From positions 1 through 26,472 of the IMG/VR virus record IMGVR_UViG_3300028388_006348: 26,472 nt of DNA; one strand, given 5' to 3'. Source of the stretch: a virus. Position 1 is the first letter of the stretch, and each line of letters begins with the position of its first letter. Below, in pieces: positions 1,254 to 22,017 of this stretch. The position numbers and the translations under genes are program-made. The notes under the pieces were generated by a model. The model worked only from the letters and a program-made list of their open reading frames with translations. It had not been told where the DNA came from and searched no databases.

Positions 1254-1877
1254 CTAATCCTTAGCCTCATCTCTTTTCCTAACTGCCTCCAAGGCACCTT
1301 CTGGAAGAACTTTGTATAAATCGGCTATCTTTTTTGGTTGTGAAATCCGAGATTCCACGATGAAATTGACCATTTCAAACAAGCCGTGAGCAATTTCAGG
1401 CTTGTCATCAATTATCAATTCGCCTGGATGCACTGCGTTATTACCAACAACACGGCAGTAATCAAGCGCTTGCTGAACTTCCACAGGGAGACCTTTCCTA
1501 ACCAACGAAGCAATGTCATTGTTTAAATTTTCTCCACTTTCACCAAGTTCAATCATCAATTTCTGAAGGGTCAGACGTAATAAAGCTGCCGCAGCCCTTG
1601 GAGAACGAGAAACAATATCTCTTGCTTCTTCATAGTCCTCAACACAAGCACTCGGCAAATCAATATGCCCACGCGGCACCGGTGCTTCCAATGGCAAAAT
1701 CATTCTATCTTTGTACCAGTAACAAATTTCCTTACAGTGAAAACACCCTGAATACCTAAGATCACTCTGGCCTCCCCCACTAAATAGCAGATTACCCCAC
1801 CGTTGATGTGCGAAGACTCCACAATGTACACAGTGAAATTGCTCCTCTTTATATTTCGGTGGGAAGTATTCACTCAT
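1254..1877 (-). CDS. DUF4145-domain protein with N-terminal zinc ribbon
   Basis: ATG at 1877 with GGAG upstream on the minus strand. The N-terminus has Cys16, Cys19, Cys45 and Cys48 (two CxxC knuckles), a likely zinc ribbon. The C-terminal half (about residues 85-180) matches DUF4145: an SPRAAAALLRLTLQKL helix, an NLNNDIASLVRKGLP stretch, then RVVGNNAVHPG (Arg142 to His150). DUF4145 is generally placed among HEPN-like helical domains and recurs in restriction and other conflict systems. The Arg...Asn...His stretch is the part most like a HEPN active-site helix, but its spacing is not the canonical RX4-6H, so catalysis is uncertain. First gene of a two-gene AT-rich operon. The shared zinc-ribbon architecture suggests the two products act together, possibly on nucleic acid (inference). 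Confidence 0.9.
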   Translation of the reverse strand: MSEYFPPKYKEEQFHCVHCGVFAHQRWGNLLFSGGGQSDLRYSGCFHCKEICYWYKDRMILPLEAPVPRGHIDLPSACVEDYEEARDIVSRSPRAAAALLRLTLQKLMIELGESGENLNNDIASLVRKGLPVEVQQALDYCRVVGNNAVHPGELIIDDKPEIAHGLFEMVNFIVESRISQPKKIADLYKVLPEGALEAVRKRDEAKD

Positions 1878-4271: not shown

Positions 4272-5039
4272 ATGTGTGGAGCTCTGAAGAACGTTATTGA
4301 GATGCCTGTTTTGCCGCCAATCCTTACGGAGCTGGGGTATTCAGAGGAAGAGATAAAAGACATTTTGAATTTACCGGGCAGGAAGAAGAAAGAGGCCCGG
4401 CCAACAGATCCCGTACTCAGCCTGATACCTACCCGCACGGGGCCAAAGTTGATGAACGCCACCTGGTGGCTCAAGCTGCACAACGATACTCTTGAACCCG
4501 ATACCCAGTGGTCGACGTTCAATTGCCGGTCCACCCAGCTACTGAGTAGCCCCCTCCATAAGATTCCACCGAAGAGCTATCGATCTATTGTGATTGCTGA
4601 AGGTTTCTACGAATGGCAGCCCATCTACCAAGGTGGCGTGTTGTATTCAGGACTGTCTGAGGAAGAGAAAAAGAAACCACCCAAGCCGGTCTCCAAGCAA
4701 AAGTACCTGATCCACAAGCCCGGCCAACTAATGTTCCTGGCGGCTATGTGCAAACACTGGGTGGATGATGATGGTAACGCTAAGGCGTCGACGGGGGTCA
4801 TTACACTGCCGCCGCACCCAGCGTTCAGCGATATACACCACAAGTCATTCCCGTTGGTGATCAAAGACGAAGAGCTCAGCGACTGGCTGGACCGAACAAT
4901 GCCAACCGAACACTTTGAGCCGTTGTTCAACCTCACCGACGTGCGTGAACCCTTTGAAGCGATTGTCGCTGATGAGCCCGAGTTGCTGGGCACCGACCAA
5001 CACCCCTATCTACTGACACCTGGTAAAATTAAGACGTAG
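4272..5039 (+). CDS. SRAP-family protein (HMCES/YedK-like abasic-site DNA-protein crosslinking)
   Basis: The start is fixed by the obligatory MCG N-terminus: Cys2 becomes the catalytic N-terminal cysteine after Met removal and bonds to ring-opened abasic sites in single-stranded DNA. Other family landmarks are Asn84 in the NCRS motif, Glu110 in AEGFYEW, and His189 in the IHHKSFPLVI segment (YedK IHDRMP). Length 255 aa is slightly above the usual 220-230, owing to a 20-residue insert around 115-140 (GGVLYSGLSEEEKKKPPKPV). The Shine-Dalgarno is poor. The gene runs from cos toward the portal gene and overlaps its 3' end by 11 bp, tail to tail. It probably protects replicating or incoming phage ssDNA (inference). 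Cytoplasmic. Confidence 0.93.
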   Translation: MCGALKNVIEMPVLPPILTELGYSEEEIKDILNLPGRKKKEARPTDPVLSLIPTRTGPKLMNATWWLKLHNDTLEPDTQWSTFNCRSTQLLSSPLHKIPPKSYRSIVIAEGFYEWQPIYQGGVLYSGLSEEEKKKPPKPVSKQKYLIHKPGQLMFLAAMCKHWVDDDGNAKASTGVITLPPHPAFSDIHHKSFPLVIKDEELSDWLDRTMPTEHFEPLFNLTDVREPFEAIVADEPELLGTDQHPYLLTPGKIKT

Positions 5040-6012
5040 GCATAGGCAAGTTGTATTCGTTGAAGCGCACCACCTCCCTGCCCATCACCTCATTCAACTC
5101 CCTGAACCGTTCCTGCAAGGGCTCCAGCTCGTTGGCCACGAACACCCGTGCGGCTTTCTCGGCGTCACCAAAGCCACCGGTGTTGGCGGGGATGATACCC
5201 ATGAGCTGTGGCGGCACGCGGTGGCCGGCGAGTTGGTCGTCGCGGCTGACGTTTTTGATGTTCCAGAAATCGTCCTTGGCAGCGACCTCGCTGACCGGGA
5301 TCAGTTGCAGTCCGTCTTTCTTGCCGTTGGGCGCATACATGAACAGGTTGCGGAAGTTGCCGGGGCCTTTGGATTCGCGCAGGGCGGTGCGCATGGCATC
5401 GACGTCTTCCTGCGAGTGGGCGGCGTCGGTCATGTAGAGGATGAAACCGGCGTGGCTGCCGTTCTCGTAGTACTTGCGCCGGAACAGCGTGGCCGATTCG
5501 TTCAGCCAGGCGGCTTGCAAGCTGCCCAGGTAATCTGGCACGCCATAGAGCTCCTGGTCGATGTCCGGCTCCATCAGGTGGCAGATGCTGTCGCGTTTGA
5601 ATTCGGTCTCCTGCTTCCAGCCATGCACCCACCAATAGGAACCCGGCTCAATACCGCGCCGCACATACTTGGCACGCGCCGGGCGGATCTGCAGCAAGCT
5701 GCTCAGCCGGGAACGCACCTGCTCGGCGTAGGCATTGCCGAACACCAGGTAATCGAGCGCCAGGCAGGCGAAGTCGCTGCGGCTGAGCCACTGCGTTGGC
5801 TGGAACGTCTTCACCAAAATGTTGCGCTTCACCTGCAAGGCACTGCCATGGTGAGCGGTGGCGCGGTACGACTTGCTCAGCGCGCTCAAATCGACCGGCG
5901 GTTCGTACCAGCGGCTGCCCGCCATCCAGCAACCCAGATACAGCATGTCGTAGCGGTCCATCACCGGCGTCGGGTCGCCAAAGGTGAAGGCTTCATAGTG
6001 GGCGGTGCTCAT
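5029..6012 (-). CDS. Q: portal protein (P2 gpQ family)
   Basis: A 327-aa portal (PBSX/P2 Q family; P2 gpQ is 344 aa). It forms the dodecameric ring at the unique capsid vertex, through which DNA is packaged and to which the tail attaches. Recognisable stretches: RHHGSAL-like HHGSALQVKRN (about 54-64), YLVFGNAYAEQVRSRL (about 88-103), VPDYLGSLQAAWLNESATLFRRKYYENGSHAGFILYMTD (about 177-215) and HRVPPQLMGIIPANTGGFGD (about 264-283). Its ATG overlaps the terminase stop as ATGA, so the two are translationally coupled on a leftward late transcript, as in P2. Its 3' end overlaps the convergent SRAP gene. Confidence 0.96.
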   Translation of the reverse strand: MSTAHYEAFTFGDPTPVMDRYDMLYLGCWMAGSRWYEPPVDLSALSKSYRATAHHGSALQVKRNILVKTFQPTQWLSRSDFACLALDYLVFGNAYAEQVRSRLSSLLQIRPARAKYVRRGIEPGSYWWVHGWKQETEFKRDSICHLMEPDIDQELYGVPDYLGSLQAAWLNESATLFRRKYYENGSHAGFILYMTDAAHSQEDVDAMRTALRESKGPGNFRNLFMYAPNGKKDGLQLIPVSEVAAKDDFWNIKNVSRDDQLAGHRVPPQLMGIIPANTGGFGDAEKAARVFVANELEPLQERFRELNEVMGREVVRFNEYNLPMPTS

Positions 6013-7802
6013 TCGTAAATCTCCATCATGCCCTGGAGCGTGCCCTCGGCCGGGCCTTCCAGGGGTTCATTAGAAAGGGCATGCATGGTGGCCCATGCAA
6101 GTTCAGCGTGGCCGGTGTCTTTGCGTCGACCGGCGCTATAGGTGAGATGGCGGCCGGAATCCGTCAGGTTGCGGCGAATGGCCATAAAGCTGTGCACGAT
6201 GTCGGTCGCGCCTGCGTCGAATTCCAGGCGGCCGTTGTTGATCACGTTCTGGGTTTTCAGCACCAGTTGATATTTCACTTCCGGGCTGTATTGGAAACGG
6301 CGCACGTTGGGAAAAAACTTACTCACCAATTCGGCGACGGCACCGCCCAAACCAGTGACATCGATGCCAATAAATTCGACATTGAACCGGCCGCACAATG
6401 TGCGGATTTCCTCGGCCTGTTGTTCATAATCCAGCCCGCGCAATCGGTGCCGCTCAATGATGCGATGCTTACCCAGGCGCGAGCGCGACGGCGCCAAAAC
6501 CACCAAGCCCGCGCCATCGCCCTCCTCGCTCTCGCCCGACGGGTCGTAACCGATCCACACCGGATGGTTGCCCAACGGCCGCTCAGCGAACGGTTTTAAA
6601 TCGCGCCAGGCAATCCAGCTATCGACCAAACACGCCTGCAGAGTACTCAGCGGGAATACACTCAGGGTGTCGTCGACAAACTGACACATCAGCAAATTGG
6701 CGTATTCGTCGTCGCTGTATTCCAGGCGCAATTGATCCAAATCGAACAAATCGCAGCCGCCGGCAACGGCGTCTTCCACCGTGATAATTTGCCGCCACTG
6801 CTTGTCGCCACCGAGCACACCCGACCGCAACGCCGCATGCGATACATCGATCTCAATACGCTCGCTTTTCGGGCGTCGCTTATTGAACAGATCGCCATTC
6901 CAGAACGGATAGGCTTCGTGCGTGAACGCCGACGGCGTCGAGAAATAGGTTTGCGACCACTGCTTGTGCATCGCCATACCACTGGCCACTTTACGGAACT
7001 CCTGGAAACGATGAATCCAGAAGTACTCATCCATGTAGATGTCGCCGTGGTAACTCTGCGCCGTGCGCGCATTGGTTCCGAGAAAATACAGGTGCGCCCC
7101 GTTCGGCAACACAATCGGATCGCCGCGCAACTCCACCCCGGTGTGCTCATGCACGAACTGCACAATGTACTGGCGGAACACATGCGCCTGCGCCTTACTG
7201 GCCGACATAAAAATCTTGTTTTTGCCCGTCTCCATCGCATCGACGATGGCCTCGCGGGCGAAGTACCAGGTCGCGCCAATTTGGCGGCTTTTTAGAATGT
7301 TGCGGATACGGTGTTTTTGCCCGGCCACACGCCAACCGGTTTGATATTCAAACAGCGACGCCTCGAATGCATCGCGCAATTTCAGCGCGCCATCGTCACC
7401 CACTTCATTGCGTTTGGCTTTGCGCTTTGGCTCCGCATTGCGATTGCGAACCTTGGGGTTTAAGTCCGCCTCATTGCCCGTTTCTTCATAACGACGCACC
7501 CGCGCCAGGCGTTCCATTTGCCGGCCGAGCAAATCGATTTCTTTGTAGTCTTTCCCCTCTTTCACGTCCTTGGCAATGAGCTGCACCAGACGTTGCTCAA
7601 GCGTCGATTCCACCCGGTCGATCGGTTGCGATTCTTCCCAACCATCGCGCCGTTTCCAGTTATGCAGCGTCGCAGGTTTTTCATCGAGCAATTCCGCAAT
7701 GCGCGCAATGCGCCACCCCTGCCAATACAGCTCGCGAGCGCGTTGGCGGGGGTCTCGATGGTCATCAATGGAAGGTGCAAAAGTGAGGTTGGTCGTCGTC
7801 AT
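6009..7802 (-). CDS. P: terminase large subunit (P2 gpP family)
   Basis: 597 aa (P2 gpP 590). The N-terminal 60 residues form the DNA-recognition HTH typical of gpP (ARELYWQGWRIARIAELL, LHNWKRRDGW). The ATPase has a degenerate Walker A, KSRQIGAT (171-178), and Walker B DIYMDE (254-259). The C-terminal RNase H-like nuclease shows Asp420 in IGYDPSGE, Asp481 in GIDVTG and a DTGHAELAW segment near the end, as expected for the metal-binding triad. It cuts at cos and pumps DNA through the portal. First gene of the leftward pair. The start at 7802 matches the P2 N-terminus, though its Shine-Dalgarno is weak. Confidence 0.96.
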   Translation of the reverse strand: MTTTNLTFAPSIDDHRDPRQRARELYWQGWRIARIAELLDEKPATLHNWKRRDGWEESQPIDRVESTLEQRLVQLIAKDVKEGKDYKEIDLLGRQMERLARVRRYEETGNEADLNPKVRNRNAEPKRKAKRNEVGDDGALKLRDAFEASLFEYQTGWRVAGQKHRIRNILKSRQIGATWYFAREAIVDAMETGKNKIFMSASKAQAHVFRQYIVQFVHEHTGVELRGDPIVLPNGAHLYFLGTNARTAQSYHGDIYMDEYFWIHRFQEFRKVASGMAMHKQWSQTYFSTPSAFTHEAYPFWNGDLFNKRRPKSERIEIDVSHAALRSGVLGGDKQWRQIITVEDAVAGGCDLFDLDQLRLEYSDDEYANLLMCQFVDDTLSVFPLSTLQACLVDSWIAWRDLKPFAERPLGNHPVWIGYDPSGESEEGDGAGLVVLAPSRSRLGKHRIIERHRLRGLDYEQQAEEIRTLCGRFNVEFIGIDVTGLGGAVAELVSKFFPNVRRFQYSPEVKYQLVLKTQNVINNGRLEFDAGATDIVHSFMAIRRNLTDSGRHLTYSAGRRKDTGHAELAWATMHALSNEPLEGPAEGTLQGMMEIYE

Positions 7803-13807: not shown

Positions 13808-14033
13808 CATTTCGTCCTAAGACAGACGAAAAAAGTAACCCAACTAGGGTGGAAATTAGGTCACTGGATTGACCTGCGAATAACGCCACTGGATCACTGT
13901 GAATAGGTGTCAGGACGAACCGCAGAGTGACATATACAGAAGGCCGTAATATGGGTGACAGAAGATGGTCAACCCAACCGCACAAAGTGCAACGCGTCCT
14001 AAGATGGACTCGAAAATACAGCCCAGATAGGGC
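13808..14033 (+). repeat. structured non-coding repeat, copy 1 of 2 (226 bp)
   Basis: Tandem with copy 2. By eye the copies differ at about twelve bases and one single-base indel. Each unit opens with CGTCCTAAGACAGACG and carries the same CGTCCTAAGA core again near its end (here 13813 and 13995). Internal hairpins are shared by both copies: GGTCA/TGACC, TGTCA/TGACA and GCCC-AGATA-GGGC. There is no credible ORF in the + direction; the minus-strand ORFs lack RBSs and simply follow the repeat. It lies between hicA and hicB. Confidence 0.88.
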
Positions 14034-14258
14034 CATTCCGTCCTAAGACAGACGAAAGAAATAACCCAATTAGGGTGGAAATTTGGTCAATGGATGACCT
14101 GCGAATAAGGCCACTGGATCATTGTGAATAGGTGTCAGGACGAACCGCAGAGTGACATATACAGAAGGCCGTAAAATGGGTGACAGAAGATGGTCAACCC
14201 AACCGCACAAAGTGCGACGCGTCCTAAGATGGACCCGAAAATACAGCCCAGATAGGGC
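14034..14258 (+). repeat. structured non-coding repeat, copy 2 of 2 (225 bp)
   Basis: Directly abuts copy 1. The CGTCCTAAGA cores are at 14039 and 14220. The single-base indel between copies falls in the loop of the GGTCA/TGACC hairpin, leaving the stem intact, and the terminal stem becomes a 5-bp AGCCC/GGGCT. A TATACT (14262-14267) just after the copy could be a -10 box for hicB, but no good -35 is seen. About 100 bp without other features separates it from hicB. Confidence 0.88.
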
Positions 14259-14361
14259 TTCTATACTGGTTACAGAACAGACCTGCATAGAAACAAAGCG
14301 AGCGCCTTAAGAGAGGCCAGTAGCAAAGCCAATATTGGCGAAGAGATACCAACGATTCGTA

Positions 14362-14769
14362 ATGAAATATCCAGTAAGTATTGAAAAAAATGGTGACGGC
14401 TACTTGGTTACCTTCCCAGACATACCGGAAGCTCTGACTGAGGCCGTCACCTATAATGAAGCTAAAGAGATGGCTCTTGATGCCCTCATTACCGCCTTTG
14501 ACTTCTACTTTGAAGACAAGCGGCCCATTCCAATGCCCAGCCAAGTTGATAGTGATTGCGTCAACATTCCACCCAGCGTTTCCGCAAAAATATTTTTGCT
14601 GAATGAGCTTTTAAAGTCCGGTATTACCTATGCTGAGTTGGCGCGACGAATCGAAGCAAAGCCACAATCAATTCACCGTCTAATAGATTTACACCATGCC
14701 ACCAAAATTGACGCTATCGACCAAGCCCTAAGAGCAATTGGCCGAGAACTTCAGGTAAGCGTTATTTAA
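14362..14769 (+). CDS. hicB: HicB antitoxin
   Basis: 135 aa from ATG 14362, giving the family start MKYPVSIE; an in-frame TTG at 14335 would add nine residues. Neither start has a good Shine-Dalgarno, itself unusual for an antitoxin. N-terminal partial RNase H-like domain (YLVTFPDIPEALTEAVTYNEAKEMALDALITAFDFYFED) and C-terminal HTH (LARRIEAKPQSIHRLIDLHHATKIDAIDQAL), both close to E. coli HicB. It neutralises HicA and represses transcription. The whole hicAB locus replaces gpV between S and W. Confidence 0.93.
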   Translation: MKYPVSIEKNGDGYLVTFPDIPEALTEAVTYNEAKEMALDALITAFDFYFEDKRPIPMPSQVDSDCVNIPPSVSAKIFLLNELLKSGITYAELARRIEAKPQSIHRLIDLHHATKIDAIDQALRAIGRELQVSVI

Positions 14770-16764: not shown

Positions 16765-17975
16765 GCGCCCTCAACATCATCATCACCGACGCCGGCCGCG
16801 CCGAACACATCAACGCGCAGAACACCGGCGCCGGGCCATTAGAAATAACCGAGGTGCGACTCGGCTCAGGCCAGTATAGTTTGGACGACACAAATAAGAC
16901 CCAAACAGCCCTGGTGTCGCCGATCAAATCTCTCACTACGCTGGCCGGTGAAGCAGTGGCCGATGACACCTTGCACTTCACCATCAAAGATGAAAGTAGC
17001 GACGCCTACCACGTTGGCGAATTCGGATTATTCACAGCGAGCGGTACGCTCTATGCGGTTTACAGCCAGCCTGCCGACCAAGGTTGGATAATCGAAAAAG
17101 CAGCACCCAGCACTTTATTGCTGGCAGTCGATGTCATTCTGGAATCGCTGAACGCCACCGATCTGACCTTCGGTTCACTGGAATTTTTGAACCCACCGGC
17201 AAGTCATGAGATTCCTGGCGTGGTAAAGCTGGCAACAACTGAAGCAACAATAGCAGGGGTAGACAGTAAATCTGCCGTTACCCCCTACGGACTTAATATT
17301 AGATTTGGGAACGTCGACAATACAAAGGATATTGAAAAACCTCTTTCTCTCGCACAACAGGCTGCATTGGATCTAAAAGCCAATCAAGATGGCGACTATA
17401 CAAACCTTAGAGCCCGTGCGACGACGAAAGAAGACGTCGGTTTATCTAATGTCGATAACTTTGGAAGAGAGCACTTTGATGAGCGTTATGGAATAGCTGG
17501 TGGAGAGGCTAACCAGCATCGCAACAATGGCCAAAACGAAGAAATTTTCTTAAAAAACTTCAATGCCCTACCTAACCCAAACACAGTAGAGATCAGTTCA
17601 TTTTTATCTCTAGCAATTATAGGTTCAAATACTAGAACTCCAGGCCTCTGGGATCTTGGTAATTCAGATCTGAATGTATCTGTCATTAAGTTACTTTGCG
17701 TCACAACGTACAAGGCAAGTATCTCTTGGGAGTGGTACCACTATGGCAGCGGAAGCACTTTCAATCTTTATATAAATGGCACCGAAACCACCTACGACTC
17801 AAACTCGAGAACACAACAATTTGCCAGTCGAAGTGTAGGCTACAGAACATTTACTGCAGGCGACCTGGTTGAATTGAGATTTGGCAATAGCCCGAGGGGT
17901 AGCTTGACCAAATTTAACGTCTCCACGCCGATTCCAATGGAGCGCCCTCTCCTCCCTATTTTTATTCGCTCATGA
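16761..17975 (+). CDS. H: tail fibre protein (P2 gpH-like), host-recognition
   Basis: 404 aa from ATG 16761 (AGGAG upstream). Residues 1-145 match the N-terminal baseplate-attachment domain of P2-type fibres (NIIITDAGRAEHINAQ..., YHVGEFGLFTASGTLYAVYSQPADQGWIIEKA). A fibre repeat IPGVVKLATTEATIAGVDSKSAVTPYGL follows at about 150-178, then the KEDVGLSNVDNF motif common in long fibres. The distal 180 residues are unlike anything I recognise and are encoded by AT-rich DNA, as expected for a receptor-binding tip exchanged between phages. P2 gpH is 669 aa, so this fibre is short. No gpG-type assembly chaperone follows. Confidence 0.9.
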   Translation: MSALNIIITDAGRAEHINAQNTGAGPLEITEVRLGSGQYSLDDTNKTQTALVSPIKSLTTLAGEAVADDTLHFTIKDESSDAYHVGEFGLFTASGTLYAVYSQPADQGWIIEKAAPSTLLLAVDVILESLNATDLTFGSLEFLNPPASHEIPGVVKLATTEATIAGVDSKSAVTPYGLNIRFGNVDNTKDIEKPLSLAQQAALDLKANQDGDYTNLRARATTKEDVGLSNVDNFGREHFDERYGIAGGEANQHRNNGQNEEIFLKNFNALPNPNTVEISSFLSLAIIGSNTRTPGLWDLGNSDLNVSVIKLLCVTTYKASISWEWYHYGSGSTFNLYINGTETTYDSNSRTQQFASRSVGYRTFTAGDLVELRFGNSPRGSLTKFNVSTPIPMERPLLPIFIRS

Positions 17976-18232
17976 GGCAATATATGAGAGCTACTTTATG
18001 GTGCTTCAGCTTATTTATAATGGGCTGTTCAAACCATCAGGTTACTGGCGGTTTAGCGTTTCAACGTGATGTAGATACCAATCAGTATGGATCTCAGATC
18101 GGAATAGTTCGATATATGGCACCTATTGGCGAAAATTTTTATGTCGATTACGGTCATATTTCCGGTATCAACACACCTGAAAGCGACTTTGGTTTGAATT
18201 GGTGTGGTGGCGGTTTCGTTGTCGATTTTTAG
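17972..18232 (+). CDS. small lipoprotein, possible superinfection-exclusion factor
   Basis: 86 aa, starting inside the fibre stop (ATGA); an in-frame ATG at 17984 would shorten the leader by four residues. N-terminal signal ATLWCFSLFIMGC with Cys19 as the probable lipidation site; Ser follows it, so outer-membrane sorting is expected. The mature 68 residues are Gly/Tyr-rich and beta-like (YGSQIGIVRYMAPIGENFYVDYGHISGIN). It takes the slot of the P2 fibre chaperone. Lipoproteins beside a receptor-binding gene, such as T5 Llp, block the phage's own receptor; that role is inferred here from position only. AT-rich. Confidence 0.75.
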   Translation: MRQYMRATLWCFSLFIMGCSNHQVTGGLAFQRDVDTNQYGSQIGIVRYMAPIGENFYVDYGHISGINTPESDFGLNWCGGGFVVDF

Positions 18233-18243
18233 GACAGGTCAAA

Positions 18244-18690
18244 ATGGACAATATAGAGCTACTGCGCCGCCTCGATAACCTGATTCGCCTGGGCAAAATC
18301 ACCGAGGTGAAAGGCAACCGCGCCAGAGTGAAAACCGGTAACAACCTCACGCCGTTTTGCCTATGGCTTACGCAACACGCGGGCGACGACGCCACCTGGT
18401 GGGCTCCGTCCGTTGGCGAGCAAGTTGTCTTGCTGTCCCCCGGTGGCGATCTCGCGCAAGCTGTTATTTTGCCCGCGCTCAATCAAAACGCCTTTCCACC
18501 ACTATCGACCGATCCCGCTATTCACGTAACAAGATTCAAGGATGGTACCCGCATCGAGCTCAACAGCCAGACCAAAACTCTAAGCATTCAACCGGCTGGA
18601 GAATTGAGTATCGAGGTCACAGGGAACTGTACAATCAAAGCCGACGGCATGCTCAACCTGAGCGGCCAAATGGTGAACCTCAACCCATAA
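18244..18690 (+). CDS. V: baseplate spike protein (P2 gpV family), C-terminally short
   Basis: 148 aa from ATG 18244 with AGGACAGGT upstream. The OB-fold part is clear: LLRRLDNLIRLGKITEVKGNRARVKTG (5-32), FCLWLTQHAGDDATWWAPSVGEQVVLLSPGGDL (38-70), closely matching P2's WLTHRAGRSRTWWAPSVGEQVLI. A short beta-helix follows (IQPAGELSIEVTGNCTIKADGMLNLSGQMVNLNP). P2 gpV is 211 aa and ends in an iron-binding HxH apex; this protein stops before any such apex. The tip is presumably supplied by the PAAR protein two genes on. It is displaced from its usual place between S and W. Confidence 0.92.
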   Translation: MDNIELLRRLDNLIRLGKITEVKGNRARVKTGNNLTPFCLWLTQHAGDDATWWAPSVGEQVVLLSPGGDLAQAVILPALNQNAFPPLSTDPAIHVTRFKDGTRIELNSQTKTLSIQPAGELSIEVTGNCTIKADGMLNLSGQMVNLNP

Positions 18691-18700
18691 GGCCCACGCA

Positions 18701-19426
18701 ATGAAATGGCACCAGTTCGAAAGCTGGCAAAGCACTGTGCTCGACCACTGGGCACCTGTCATCGACCAAATCCTGGATGAAGTAGCCAACCAACCCTGGC
18801 AAATACCCTACGACCCAACGACCGATAAAGTCGCCCTCAAAAAACAAGCGAAAAGCCATTTGGCTGCCGTTAAATCCGCAATCGAAAATTACCGCACCGA
18901 CACGACACGCCTTGGCGTATTCATCGACTGCCTGTTGTCGCAACTGTTCTATGTGCAATTGGCATTCGTCGCGCCATCGCCAGTCGCACCCGTCAGCACA
19001 CCGGCGGCCATCCCCGACAACGACTTACGCAACCTCTTCGCCTGGTGGTCGCAGAACCTGCCCTCGCCGTCCGGCTTGTTCCAAGTGCACTACAATGGCG
19101 GCACCGCCATGCCGGTTTATGCGCCCCTCGCAGAGTCTCCCGTTGTCGGCGTTAACGGAACGTTTAGCCTGGCCACCACCAGTGCGTTTACTGCCGCCAT
19201 TGAGGCAATCAACACCTCCGCCCAAGCCGACATAACACGGTTGAAACAACTGCCTGAACAAGTGCAGGCCGTTACCCGCGAGCGGGTGGCCTATGGCATC
19301 TTTGCAAGCAAAGACGCCGTCATCGAACCCGCCGACATTGATGCCAAATCCTACCTGCTCGGCCCCATGCAAACCCAGGCCATACTCGACACCTTTGGCT
19401 GGACGATAAAAGGCTTAAACGCATGA
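18701..19426 (+). CDS. 241-aa protein of unknown function between spike and PAAR tip
   Basis: ATG 18701, AAGG upstream, 10 bp after gpV; stop overlaps the PAAR start (ATGA). No family recognised. Helical N-terminal 90 residues (FESWQSTVLDHWAPVIDQILDEVANQPW..., KKQAKSHLAAVKSAIENYR), a Pro/Ala-rich linker near 93-108 (PSPVAPVSTPAAIP), then a second domain with FQVHYNGGTAMPVY and LPEQVQAVTRERVAYGIF. No signal peptide or membrane segment. Tight coupling to the spike and PAAR genes suggests a spike-loading adaptor, a tip accessory or a protein delivered with the spike (inference). Confidence 0.85.
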   Translation: MKWHQFESWQSTVLDHWAPVIDQILDEVANQPWQIPYDPTTDKVALKKQAKSHLAAVKSAIENYRTDTTRLGVFIDCLLSQLFYVQLAFVAPSPVAPVSTPAAIPDNDLRNLFAWWSQNLPSPSGLFQVHYNGGTAMPVYAPLAESPVVGVNGTFSLATTSAFTAAIEAINTSAQADITRLKQLPEQVQAVTRERVAYGIFASKDAVIEPADIDAKSYLLGPMQTQAILDTFGWTIKGLNA

Positions 19427-19725
19427 GCCTGCCCGTCGCTCGCCTCAACGACCTCACCACCGGCATCTGTTCAGCCCACAGCACCGGCCCCATTCCGGCC
19501 GTCGGCTATGTCGCCTCGGCAGCGGCCAACGTCACCGCCGAAGGCATACCCGTGGCCCGCCTGGGCGACACCGTCATCAGCGCCTGCGGCCACACTGGCA
19601 TCATAGCCAGTGCCAGCCCATCCGTGCTTGTCGAAGGGAATGCAATTGCGAGATCAGGTGAATTGGTAAGCGGATCAATGAACGGGCACTTAGTTTCAAG
19701 TGTTTTAAAAACATCAAGCAAATGA
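19423..19725 (+). CDS. PAAR-motif spike-tip protein
   Basis: 100 aa. PAAR-type repeats of hydrophobic, Pro and Gly pattern: PVARLNDLTTG, then CSAHSTGPIPAVGYVASAAANVTAEGIPVARLGDTVISACGHTGIIASASPSVLVEGNAIARSGELVSGS. His and Cys residues (C17, H19, C54, H56) are positioned to bind the metal that sharpens the cone. There is no C-terminal toxin extension. It caps the gpV trimer. Starts in the stop of the 241-aa gene. The last 30 residues are encoded by AT-richer DNA, hinting at a recombination edge. Confidence 0.92.
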   Translation: MSLPVARLNDLTTGICSAHSTGPIPAVGYVASAAANVTAEGIPVARLGDTVISACGHTGIIASASPSVLVEGNAIARSGELVSGSMNGHLVSSVLKTSSK

Positions 19726-19819
19726 ACCTAAGATTGGAAATAAATCTGTAATATATCGCCACAGGTAACATTCAGATAAATAACGTCACAAATAACCACA
19801 ATAATAATGCCAAGCAGAA

Positions 19820-19848
19820 TTGACTTAGACGTGGATAATTTTTATTTG
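19820..19848 (+). promoter_or_regulatory. candidate autonomous promoter of the AT-rich moron region
   Basis: TTGACT (19820-19825), 17-bp spacer, TATTTG (19843-19848), 30 bp ahead of the 91-aa gene, in a 152-bp AT-rich gap after PAAR. Good -35, weak -10. If active it would let the 91-aa and collagen/resistin genes be expressed from the prophage independently of the late activator. Confidence 0.4.
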
Positions 19849-19877
19849 TAAATAACACTCAAAAACAGGTAATAAAA

Positions 19878-20153
19878 ATGAGCAAAGTAAAGGAACTTCT
19901 TGAAGCAATTGGTGATGCCATCGACAACAACTGGGATAAATTTTTAGACAAGTGCGCCAAAGCAGCACTTAAAATTGAAGAAGATCATGAAGATATTTCT
20001 GAATTTGAAATAGCCCAGGCAATAGCAAAGGCATCATGGGTAACGGATGCGCTTGGACCAGCAGAACCACTCATTATTTTTGGCTATATGATTGGCACAA
20101 AGGCTAATTGGCCGGAGCGAATTAAACGGCGAATGAAAGAATTCAGTCAATAG
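19878..20153 (+). CDS. 91-aa hypothetical protein
   Basis: ATG 19878 with AGGT upstream. Acidic helical N-terminus with possible coiled-coil character (KELLEAIGDAIDNNWDKFLDKCAKAALKIEEDHEDISEFEIAQAIAKASWV), then a short hydrophobic stretch (PLIIFGYMIG, about 63-72) and a basic tail (PERIKRRMKEF). No family recognised. Small acidic helical proteins next to PAAR genes are sometimes immunity proteins, but there is no toxin partner here. AT-rich cargo between the PAAR gene and FI. Confidence 0.75.
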   Translation: MSKVKELLEAIGDAIDNNWDKFLDKCAKAALKIEEDHEDISEFEIAQAIAKASWVTDALGPAEPLIIFGYMIGTKANWPERIKRRMKEFSQ

Positions 20154-20254
20154 CGATCAGGCATTTCTTTTTCGAAAGTAAGTTATTTTAGTAACTCGTT
20201 CGAATTCTGATACCGATGTCATAAAGGAATCCAATTTTTTTGGAGAACTAACTC

Positions 20255-20689
20255 GTGAAAAAAGAAATTCTAATCGCGGTAATTTCATCACTAATAACAG
20301 CAACCGCTGTATTTTTTGTATCTGTCTCTGCTGGATTTTTCGAAAGGAGTATTTCAGAAGAACAAATTAACCAAGTAGCTTCTTCAATTGTTAACACAGA
20401 TACACGTCGAAAAATCCTGCTTGACTATATGAATGAGGATGAAGGGTTTACCGGAAGGCCCGGAGCCAAAGGCGACGAAGGAGATCAAGGGATACCGGGC
20501 CCAGCAAGGAATCTAGTTTGCATGACCACTGAGAGAGTTAGCGGTCAAGTTGCTTCCTGTCCTAGTGGATTTTTAGTTACAGGATGTTCAGCAGGAGGTA
20601 ATAAAGGTTCAATACGTCACAGAAACAATCAGTGTAGAACTGATGAAGCAGTTGATTGGACTGAAGCTCGATGCTGCACGTTGCAATAG
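20255..20689 (+). CDS. membrane-anchored collagen-like protein with resistin-like cysteine domain
   Basis: 144 aa, GTG start at 20255 with GGAGA about eight bases upstream. Layout: membrane anchor or signal-anchor 4-28 (EILIAVISSLITATAVFFVSVSAGF); helical stalk about 35-60; seven uninterrupted Gly-X-Y triplets 64-84 (GFTGRPGAKGDEGDQGIPGP); Cys-rich head 89-144. The head has Cys89, Cys102, Cys111, Cys127, Cys140, Cys141 and the motifs CPSGFLVTGC and DWTEARCC, nearly the same as human resistin CPRGFAVTGC and DWTGARCC. The collagen stretch implies a trimer, as in resistin. Exposed to the periplasm or outside. Function unknown; it may be a tail-tip, adhesin or exclusion protein. AT-rich, so recently acquired. 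Confidence 0.88.
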   Translation: MKKEILIAVISSLITATAVFFVSVSAGFFERSISEEQINQVASSIVNTDTRRKILLDYMNEDEGFTGRPGAKGDEGDQGIPGPARNLVCMTTERVSGQVASCPSGFLVTGCSAGGNKGSIRHRNNQCRTDEAVDWTEARCCTLQ

Positions 20690-20731
20690 TCAAACGGCAC
20701 AAAGTACTAATCATGTACTTAAGTCACCCAA

Positions 20732-20752
20732 CTGTAAGTATTTAGCTCACAG
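20732..20752. promoter_or_regulatory. late-promoter activator site (TGT-N13-ACA) upstream of FI
   Basis: CTGTAAG...CTCACAG with TGT at 20733-20735 and ACA at 20749-20751, 13 nt apart, 93 bp before the FI start. Matches the sites before W and between P and O, and corresponds to P2's F promoter. Predicted transcription start near 20797. Confidence 0.75.
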
Positions 20753-20844
20753 ACCCATCAACTGCCCTGCTCCGGCTGCCGTGGACACACTGGCCGCAAC
20801 ACCCAGCGGGTCGGCCTGCGCCGCCCACCAGCCAGGAGCACCCC

Positions 20845-22017
20845 ATGCCCGAAACCTATCACCACGGCGTGCGCGTTGTTGAAATCAACGACGGCACCCG
20901 AACCTTGCGCACGCCGTCCACCGCCATCATCGGTTTGGTGGCCACGGCGGCCGATGCCGATGCCATCGCCTTCCCATTGAACGAACCCAAGCTGATCACC
21001 GACATCGATGCCGCTTTAGTCGACGCCGGTAGCCAAGGCACACTGGCGCAAACGCTACGGCTGATCGGCCAGCAAGCCCAGCCATTCGTTGTGGTGGTGC
21101 GTGTCGCCGAAGGGGCCGACCTGGAAGAGACCGACGCCAACGTCATCGGCGGCGTTTCGGAAGACGGTCGCAAAACCGGCCTGCAAGCCCTGCTCACCGC
21201 CGAGCAAAAGCTGGGCGTTAAACCGCGCATCCTGGGCGCACCGGGGTTAGACACCCAAAACGTCACCGTCGCCGGCGTCACCCTGGCGCAGCAACTGCGC
21301 GGCTTTTTCTATGCGGGCTGCGACACGTCTGACACCAAAGAAGACGCCGCCAGCTACCGCGCGGGCTTCGATGCGCGCGAGCTCATGCTCATCTGGCCGG
21401 ACTGGCAAGCCTTCGATACCGAAGCCCAAAGCACCCTCACTGCCCCCGCCACCGCCGTTGCTCTGGGCTTGCGCGCCCAGATCGACGCCACCGTCGGTTG
21501 GCACAAAACGCTGTCGAACGTCGCCGTAAACGGCGTCACCGGCATCAGCAAAGACGTGCATTTCGATCTGCAAAACCCGGCCACCGACGCGGGCTATTTG
21601 AATACCGCCGACGTGACGACCTTAATCAACCGCAACGGCTTCCGCTTCTGGGGCTCGCGCACTTGCGCCAGCGACCCCTTGTTCGCATTCGAGAACACCA
21701 CCCGCACCGCTCAGGTCATCGCCGACACCATCGCCGAAGGCCATCAATGGGCGGTCGATAAACCGCTGCACCCCAGCCTTGCGCGCGACATCGTCGAAGG
21801 CATCAACGCCGCCTTCCGTCGGCTGAAAAACCAGGGCTTCATCATCGACGCCAACGCCTGGTTCAACCCAGCCCAGAACAGCGCCGACGATCTCAAAGCC
21901 GGCCGCCTGGTCATCGACTACGACTACACCCCAGTGCCGCCGCTGGAAAACTTGCTGCTGCAACAGCGCATCACCGACCGCTACCTGATCGACTTCGCCA
22001 GCCGCGTCTCAGCCTGA
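20845..22017 (+). CDS. FI: contractile tail sheath protein (P2 gpFI family)
   Basis: 390 aa, P2 gpFI 396 aa. AGGAGC precedes the ATG. Typical: YHHGVRVVEINDGTRTLRTPSTAIIGLVATA (4-34), the central ELMLIWPDWQAF (about 175-186), SKDVHFDLQNPATDAGYLNTADVTTLINRNGFRFWGSRTCASDPLFAFENTTRTAQVIADTI (about 235-296), and the C-terminal handshake strands (IDYDYTPVPPLENLLLQQRITDRYLIDF). It contracts to drive the tube through the envelope. First gene of the F operon. Confidence 0.97.
   Translation: MPETYHHGVRVVEINDGTRTLRTPSTAIIGLVATAADADAIAFPLNEPKLITDIDAALVDAGSQGTLAQTLRLIGQQAQPFVVVVRVAEGADLEETDANVIGGVSEDGRKTGLQALLTAEQKLGVKPRILGAPGLDTQNVTVAGVTLAQQLRGFFYAGCDTSDTKEDAASYRAGFDARELMLIWPDWQAFDTEAQSTLTAPATAVALGLRAQIDATVGWHKTLSNVAVNGVTGISKDVHFDLQNPATDAGYLNTADVTTLINRNGFRFWGSRTCASDPLFAFENTTRTAQVIADTIAEGHQWAVDKPLHPSLARDIVEGINAAFRRLKNQGFIIDANAWFNPAQNSADDLKAGRLVIDYDYTPVPPLENLLLQQRITDRYLIDFASRVSA

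Follow-up and report, generated by a model that had tools for sequence, protein, structure and literature searches.

A resistin-type domain on a collagen-like stalk in the probable cargo region of a P2-like phage

Proteins of the resistin family are familiar as hormones of vertebrates and as antibacterial agents. A gene lying among the tail genes of a phage seems to encode a head of this type; is the likeness genuine, how might such a gene have come to lie there, and what could its product do? The window analysed here, the whole of IMG/VR record IMGVR_UViG_3300028388_006348 (26,472 bases), is from a P2-like phage and carries genes for terminase, baseplate proteins, a tail fibre, a gpV-type spike, a PAAR protein, sheath, tube and tape measure. 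The main landmarks around the resistin-type gene are as follows.

6009-7802, minus strand: terminase.
18220-18690, plus strand: baseplate spike protein of gpV type (PF04717, E=4.4e-15; phrog_9992).
19423-19725, plus strand: PAAR-type protein gene, the last phage-like gene ahead of the cargo block (phrog_281, E=2.4e-11).
19878-20153, plus strand: AT-rich ORF of 91 aa neighbouring the resistin-type gene, of no known family and probably part of the same cargo block.
20845-22017, plus strand: tail sheath of P2 FI type, the downstream border of the cargo slot (PF17482, PF04984; phrog_23, E=5e-126).

The resistin-type gene begins with a GTG codon and is divided as below; a full-length model predicts its helical stalk and collagen parts at low confidence.

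20242-20245, plus strand: Shine-Dalgarno-like GGAG, 9 nt ahead of the GTG (from sequence).
20255-20689, plus strand: whole gene, 144 aa, with membrane helix, short helices, seven Gly-X-Y triplets and resistin-type head.
20261-20338, plus strand: N-terminal membrane helix, residues 3-28 (hydropathy and full-length model; presumed localisation).
20357-20434, plus strand: two short helices, residues 35-45 and 49-60, a possible trimerising stalk (low-confidence full-length model).
20444-20506, plus strand: collagen-like stalk GFT GRP GAK GDE GDQ GIP GPA, residues 64-84 (from sequence).
20507-20686, plus strand: resistin-type head, residues 85-144, with six cysteines (PF06954, model and PDB matches).

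A hydrophobic run of 22 residues directly after MKKE (hydropathy maximum 2.39 over 19 residues) fits an N-in membrane anchor, and VSA/GF is a candidate signal-peptidase site at this helix, which could thus be either a signal anchor or a signal peptide cleaved there. Together with six cysteines that suit an oxidising periplasm, this run suggests export. The seven Gly-X-Y triplets counted in an earlier, sequence-only reading of the locus are present and perfect, and as seven triplets only they score 15.5 bits with Pfam Collagen (PF01391), under its cut-off of 27.2. Trimerisation and membrane anchoring of the protein are plausible. Contamination or mis-assembly is an unlikely source of the gene, which is intact, is preceded by the Shine-Dalgarno-like site and has phage genes on both sides.

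Several lines of sequence evidence connect the head to resistin. The Pfam Resistin profile (PF06954), the search proposed in the sequence-only reading, matches the head at 45.3 bits (E=1.3e-11) over a curated cut-off of 25, and phmmer against the PDB returns mouse RELM-beta (1.2e-7) and resistin (1.4e-6) as its only significant matches. The head is 47.4% identical to mouse resistin and 44.6% identical to mouse RELM-beta, and these two are 55% identical to one another, making the phage head almost as close to each mouse protein as they are mutually; with the shared cysteines left out, the values are 41% and 38% for the head and 46% for the mouse pair. CPxG and DW(T/A)xARCC are conserved motifs common to the head and the resistin family, and the longer CPSGFLVTGC and DWTEARCC, noticed at the outset, both occur in the head. 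A profile built from the two mouse proteins gives the head 46.3 bits, whereas ~20,000 shuffles with the cysteines fixed score at most 14.2 bits and the best of 20,000 free shuffles reaches 16.5. The score is therefore not cysteine-driven, and chance or a pure cysteine-pattern resemblance is ruled out by these controls.

The predicted structure points in the same direction. A single-sequence AlphaFold2 model of the head, computed with no relatives in the alignment, has six strands and a mean pLDDT of 89.2, a value to be read with the caveat that the structures used to train AlphaFold2 include resistin. Foldseek places three resistin-family entries at the top (1RFX, 1RGX and 1RH7; probability 1.00, TM 0.78-0.79). 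VIA-align gives Z scores of 9.6, 9.4 and 9.4 to three resistin-family structures, with an rmsd of 2.2-2.4 over 60 residues; residues 603-682 of PCSK9 come next (Z up to 8.7), after which values fall to ~4 (Plasmodium APC-beta, 4.1). The head, as a predicted model, matches the six-stranded beta jelly-roll of the resistin domain; no match with E <0.2 came from a viral structure library. Judged by sequence and predicted structure together, the head is, at the domain level, a true resistin-domain homologue, and the real homology proposed at first sight is borne out by profile, shuffles and fold. Convergence or chance, in which a short cysteine-rich head merely resembles resistin, could appeal to the length of the domain (just 60 residues), to the fact that no intermediates were found and to the possibility that AlphaFold2 recalls resistin structures from its training, but it is strongly disfavoured and very improbable in light of the profile E-value, the 14-16 bits of the shuffles, the 38-41% identity to the mouse proteins outside the shared cysteines and a structural comparison that scores resistin and PCSK9 mostly at Z 7.5-9.6 but unrelated folds at about 4.

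The cysteines show which kind of resistin domain this is. They lie at residues 89, 102, 111, 127, 140 and 141, with gaps of 13, 9, 16, 13 and 1, and align with resistin C1, C2, C3, C6, C9 and C10; C4, C5, C7 and C8 are absent. Resistin disulfides pair 1-10, 2-9, 3-6, 4-7 and 5-8, so exactly the pairs 4-7 and 5-8 are missing from the head, and removal of four of ten cysteines at random would leave whole pairs in 10 of 210 cases (5%). The published RELM spacing, C-X11-C-X8-C-X-C-X3-C-X10-C-X-C-X-C-X9-CC, gives 12, 9, 17, 14 and 1 for cysteines 1, 2, 3, 6, 9 and 10, in agreement with the resistin gaps quoted in the sequence-only reading, whose phage gaps also hold, and human resistin has a disulfide between residues 51 and 104, that is, 1-10 (PMC6545779). 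The same reading spoke of two pairs lost: the absence of exactly 4-7 and 5-8 stands, but ‘loss’ does not, because the three resistin-like modules of PCSK9 likewise have three disulfides each (PMC3820617), and for this reason the six-cysteine set may be an older state instead of a reduced one. The head has six of the ten cysteines in the ten-cysteine, five-disulfide RELM signature, and with no cysteine upstream of residue 89 the N-terminal inter-trimer cysteine of RELM is absent as well; by sequence, the phage protein contains a resistin domain yet, on both counts, is not a RELM hormone.

Relatives of the head were sought widely. None was found in phage records, plasmids or IMG/VR, and a pattern scan of genome contigs from 84,980 genomes gave no homologue among the matches listed. 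Profile searches with PF06954 or a second profile gave no homologue in ~1,800 genomes (250 from the Halomonas family, 369 from its class, 398 from its phylum, and 296, 246 and 251 from three other phyla, some counted twice); as a positive control, the genome profile search picks up the resistin-type gene of the window (46.4 bits). Bacterial or phage homologues sharing the signature, which the sequence-only reading had looked to, were thus not found in the collections searched, which are bacterial and phage and in which pattern scans catch only fairly close relatives. Literature searches turned up no report of a resistin in bacteria or phages. Several candidates were rejected: a weak match to gp109 of Gordonia phage Sixama, annotated as a cysteine protease/peptidase; a weak match on a Pseudomonas silvicola plasmid, falling in an unrelated frame; a tail-fibre-like protein that resembles the collagen part only; among the matches listed, DNA-pattern loci from IMG/VR and genome contigs, which lie in wrong frames and reach 17 bits at most with the profile; and further loci whose frames are short or antisense, or which encode a cysteine-rich repeat of another kind.

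Nothing bacterial in these collections is as close to the head as the animal resistins are. It would be most simply explained as a eukaryotic resistin-type domain captured by the phage or by an earlier bacterial host, and because no relative appeared in the bacterial and phage collections, this was probably a rare gene capture. Two fuller histories can be offered tentatively. The phage may have taken a resistin-type gene from an animal or another eukaryote, set it on a collagen stalk and anchor, and used its antibacterial or ligand-binding activity in phage-bacterium conflict; or conversely, the head may be a remnant of an ancient lineage with six cysteines that was the source of the animal hormones.

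The setting of the gene bears on its status. With the preceding 91-aa ORF, for which no relatives were found, it forms an AT-rich island in the interval from PAAR to sheath: GC3 is 0.28 for the resistin-type gene and 0.34 for the ORF, and 0.65, 0.80 and 0.77 for PAAR, sheath and tape measure, respectively. Upstream of the sheath gene, the related phage vB_HboP_4908 (Halomonas) has an ExoZ-type acyltransferase and hypotheticals, and the related phage vB_BpuM-ZY1 has a methyltransferase and two hypotheticals; the resistin-type gene is absent from the related phages examined. Its low GC3, and the different non-structural genes found at this place in the two relatives, indicate that the gene is most likely foreign cargo. 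In P2, Z/fun presumably sits in the same slot, ahead of the sheath gene. Old, Tin and Fun/Z, which are among several anti-phage cargo genes carried by P2 (PMC8594841), are likewise non-structural cargo of a P2-type phage, although they have no shown sequence relation to the resistin-type gene. The present phage also has a PD-T7-4 match elsewhere in the window, in keeping with such cargo, but PADLOC gives no match to the resistin-type protein. Nothing resembling a promoter turned up across 19650-20900, and the gene may simply be transcribed late along with the tail genes, in which case a role in the virion or in lysis would become more likely.

For function, we give about even chances to a foreign-cargo product that is anchored or exported and acts at the cell envelope as a stalked, trimeric resistin-type module. 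In this model, the cargo gene would have entered the phage between its baseplate/spike/PAAR genes and the gene for the tail sheath, and would encode a small protein that is exported and either stays in the inner membrane through its N-terminal helix or is released from there. The short helical and collagen-like stalk would probably trimerise, the head, with the resistin/PCSK9 fold and its cysteines joined in disulfides, would face the periplasm or cell surface, and the resulting trimeric binding module could alter the cell envelope during infection or lysogeny. Our best guess for its role is superinfection exclusion or surface conversion. The C-terminal beta domain lets RELM proteins attach to negatively charged lipids and make bacterial membranes permeable (PMC8253364), which renders an envelope role for the phage protein testable.

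The same RELM activity could instead suit a late lysis or envelope-damage factor, whose anchored head would bind and disturb bacterial membrane lipid and thereby aid lysis or harm competitors. The gene lies on the strand of the late tail genes, inside their run; we nevertheless think this unlikely, given that the head is nearly neutral in charge (K+R 7, D+E 5), that the published membrane activity requires low salt and acid pH (PMC8253364) and that phages of this type have their lysis genes elsewhere. We also doubt that the protein forms part of the virion. A trimeric, receptor-binding appendage on the tail or baseplate would accord with a gene between PAAR and sheath, with the collagen-like segments that phage tail fibres commonly carry and with the suitability of trimeric heads for fibres, but the strong N-terminal membrane helix is unusual in virion proteins, the related phages do without the gene and its base composition is unlike that of the tail genes; the helix and this foreign composition disfavour the tail appendage suggested earlier. 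Finally, a lysogen might display the head as a resistin-type ligand mimic toward a eukaryotic host or matrix. Such an adhesin or host-interaction factor would fit a head nearer to animal resistins than to any bacterial protein found, and adhesins on collagen stalks are known in bacteria, Lcl (a weak, sub-threshold match) among them, but it is improbable for a protein that lacks an outer-membrane anchor and is predicted from its N-terminus to reside in the inner membrane or periplasm.

The cargo module acting at the envelope that we prefer has partial counterparts in known systems. It shares with resistin and RELM a PF06954 score over cut-off, a head identity of 45-47%, a predicted six-strand fold and, in the low-confidence model, a head on a helical stalk, but differs in having six cysteines instead of ten, no cysteine ahead of the head and hence no inter-trimer disulfide, a collagen-like stalk and putative membrane anchor, and a phage genome as its source. 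The C-terminal cysteine-rich region of PCSK9 (V/CHRD) has the same fold as that predicted here and three disulfides per module, as would be expected in the phage head; in contrast, identity is 25% and confined to the structural alignment, there is no Pfam or PDB sequence match, and PCSK9 carries three tandem modules on a protease without a collagen stalk. The collagen-like phage and prophage proteins of E. coli O157 (PMC3368898) and Lcl (NF046116) also combine a Gly-X-Y stalk with a C-terminal non-collagen part, whereas the phage protein has a very short array (7 triplets), an N-terminal membrane helix and a resistin-type head. In the collections searched, no relative was found that could independently back this architecture or the proposed function. 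There are several implications. First, a clear phage homologue with a new architecture and, presumably, just the three-disulfide core bears on the origin of the resistin fold. Second, the phage head offers a minimal natural version of that fold for study. More broadly, the phage cargo repertoire would gain a eukaryotic-type signalling or defence domain.

The rest of the window helps to place the phage. By DNA, the phages nearest in terminase are vB_BpuM-ZY1 (68.7%) and Halomonas phage vB_HboP_4908 (67.4%), and tail genes are matched in 49 of 151 genomes of the Halomonas litopenaei family, with long matches at ~64-73% identity; together, the terminase neighbours and tail-gene matches make a marine-type gammaproteobacterial host probable. 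The terminase's top DNA match among phage records, OR820920.1, is a P2-like phage recorded from the Gram-positive Bacillus pumilus, a host label that looks doubtful.

Other genes in the window deserve mention. A 241-aa protein encoded between the spike and PAAR genes (18701-19426, plus strand) has no match in Pfam, PHROG or PADLOC. An AT-rich gene between the tail fibre and spike genes (17972-18232, plus strand) encodes a small protein of 86 aa with a lipobox-like start, LFIMGC, and no match in Pfam or PHROG; it is possibly a second envelope cargo gene. Between the tail-completion and baseplate genes, at 13808-14258, a ~226-bp unit occurs in two direct copies (a 164-nt part 97% identical, a 62-nt part 90%), directly ahead of a HicB-like antitoxin gene (14335-14769, plus strand; PF15919, E=4.6e-8). 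An SRAP (SOS response associated peptidase) gene (4272-5039, plus strand; E=5.8e-23) adjoins the portal gene. Close to the end of this P2-like phage, a 207-aa protein with a DUF4145 domain (1254-1877, minus strand) matches the anti-phage defence gene PD-T7-4 in PADLOC (E=3.9e-90).
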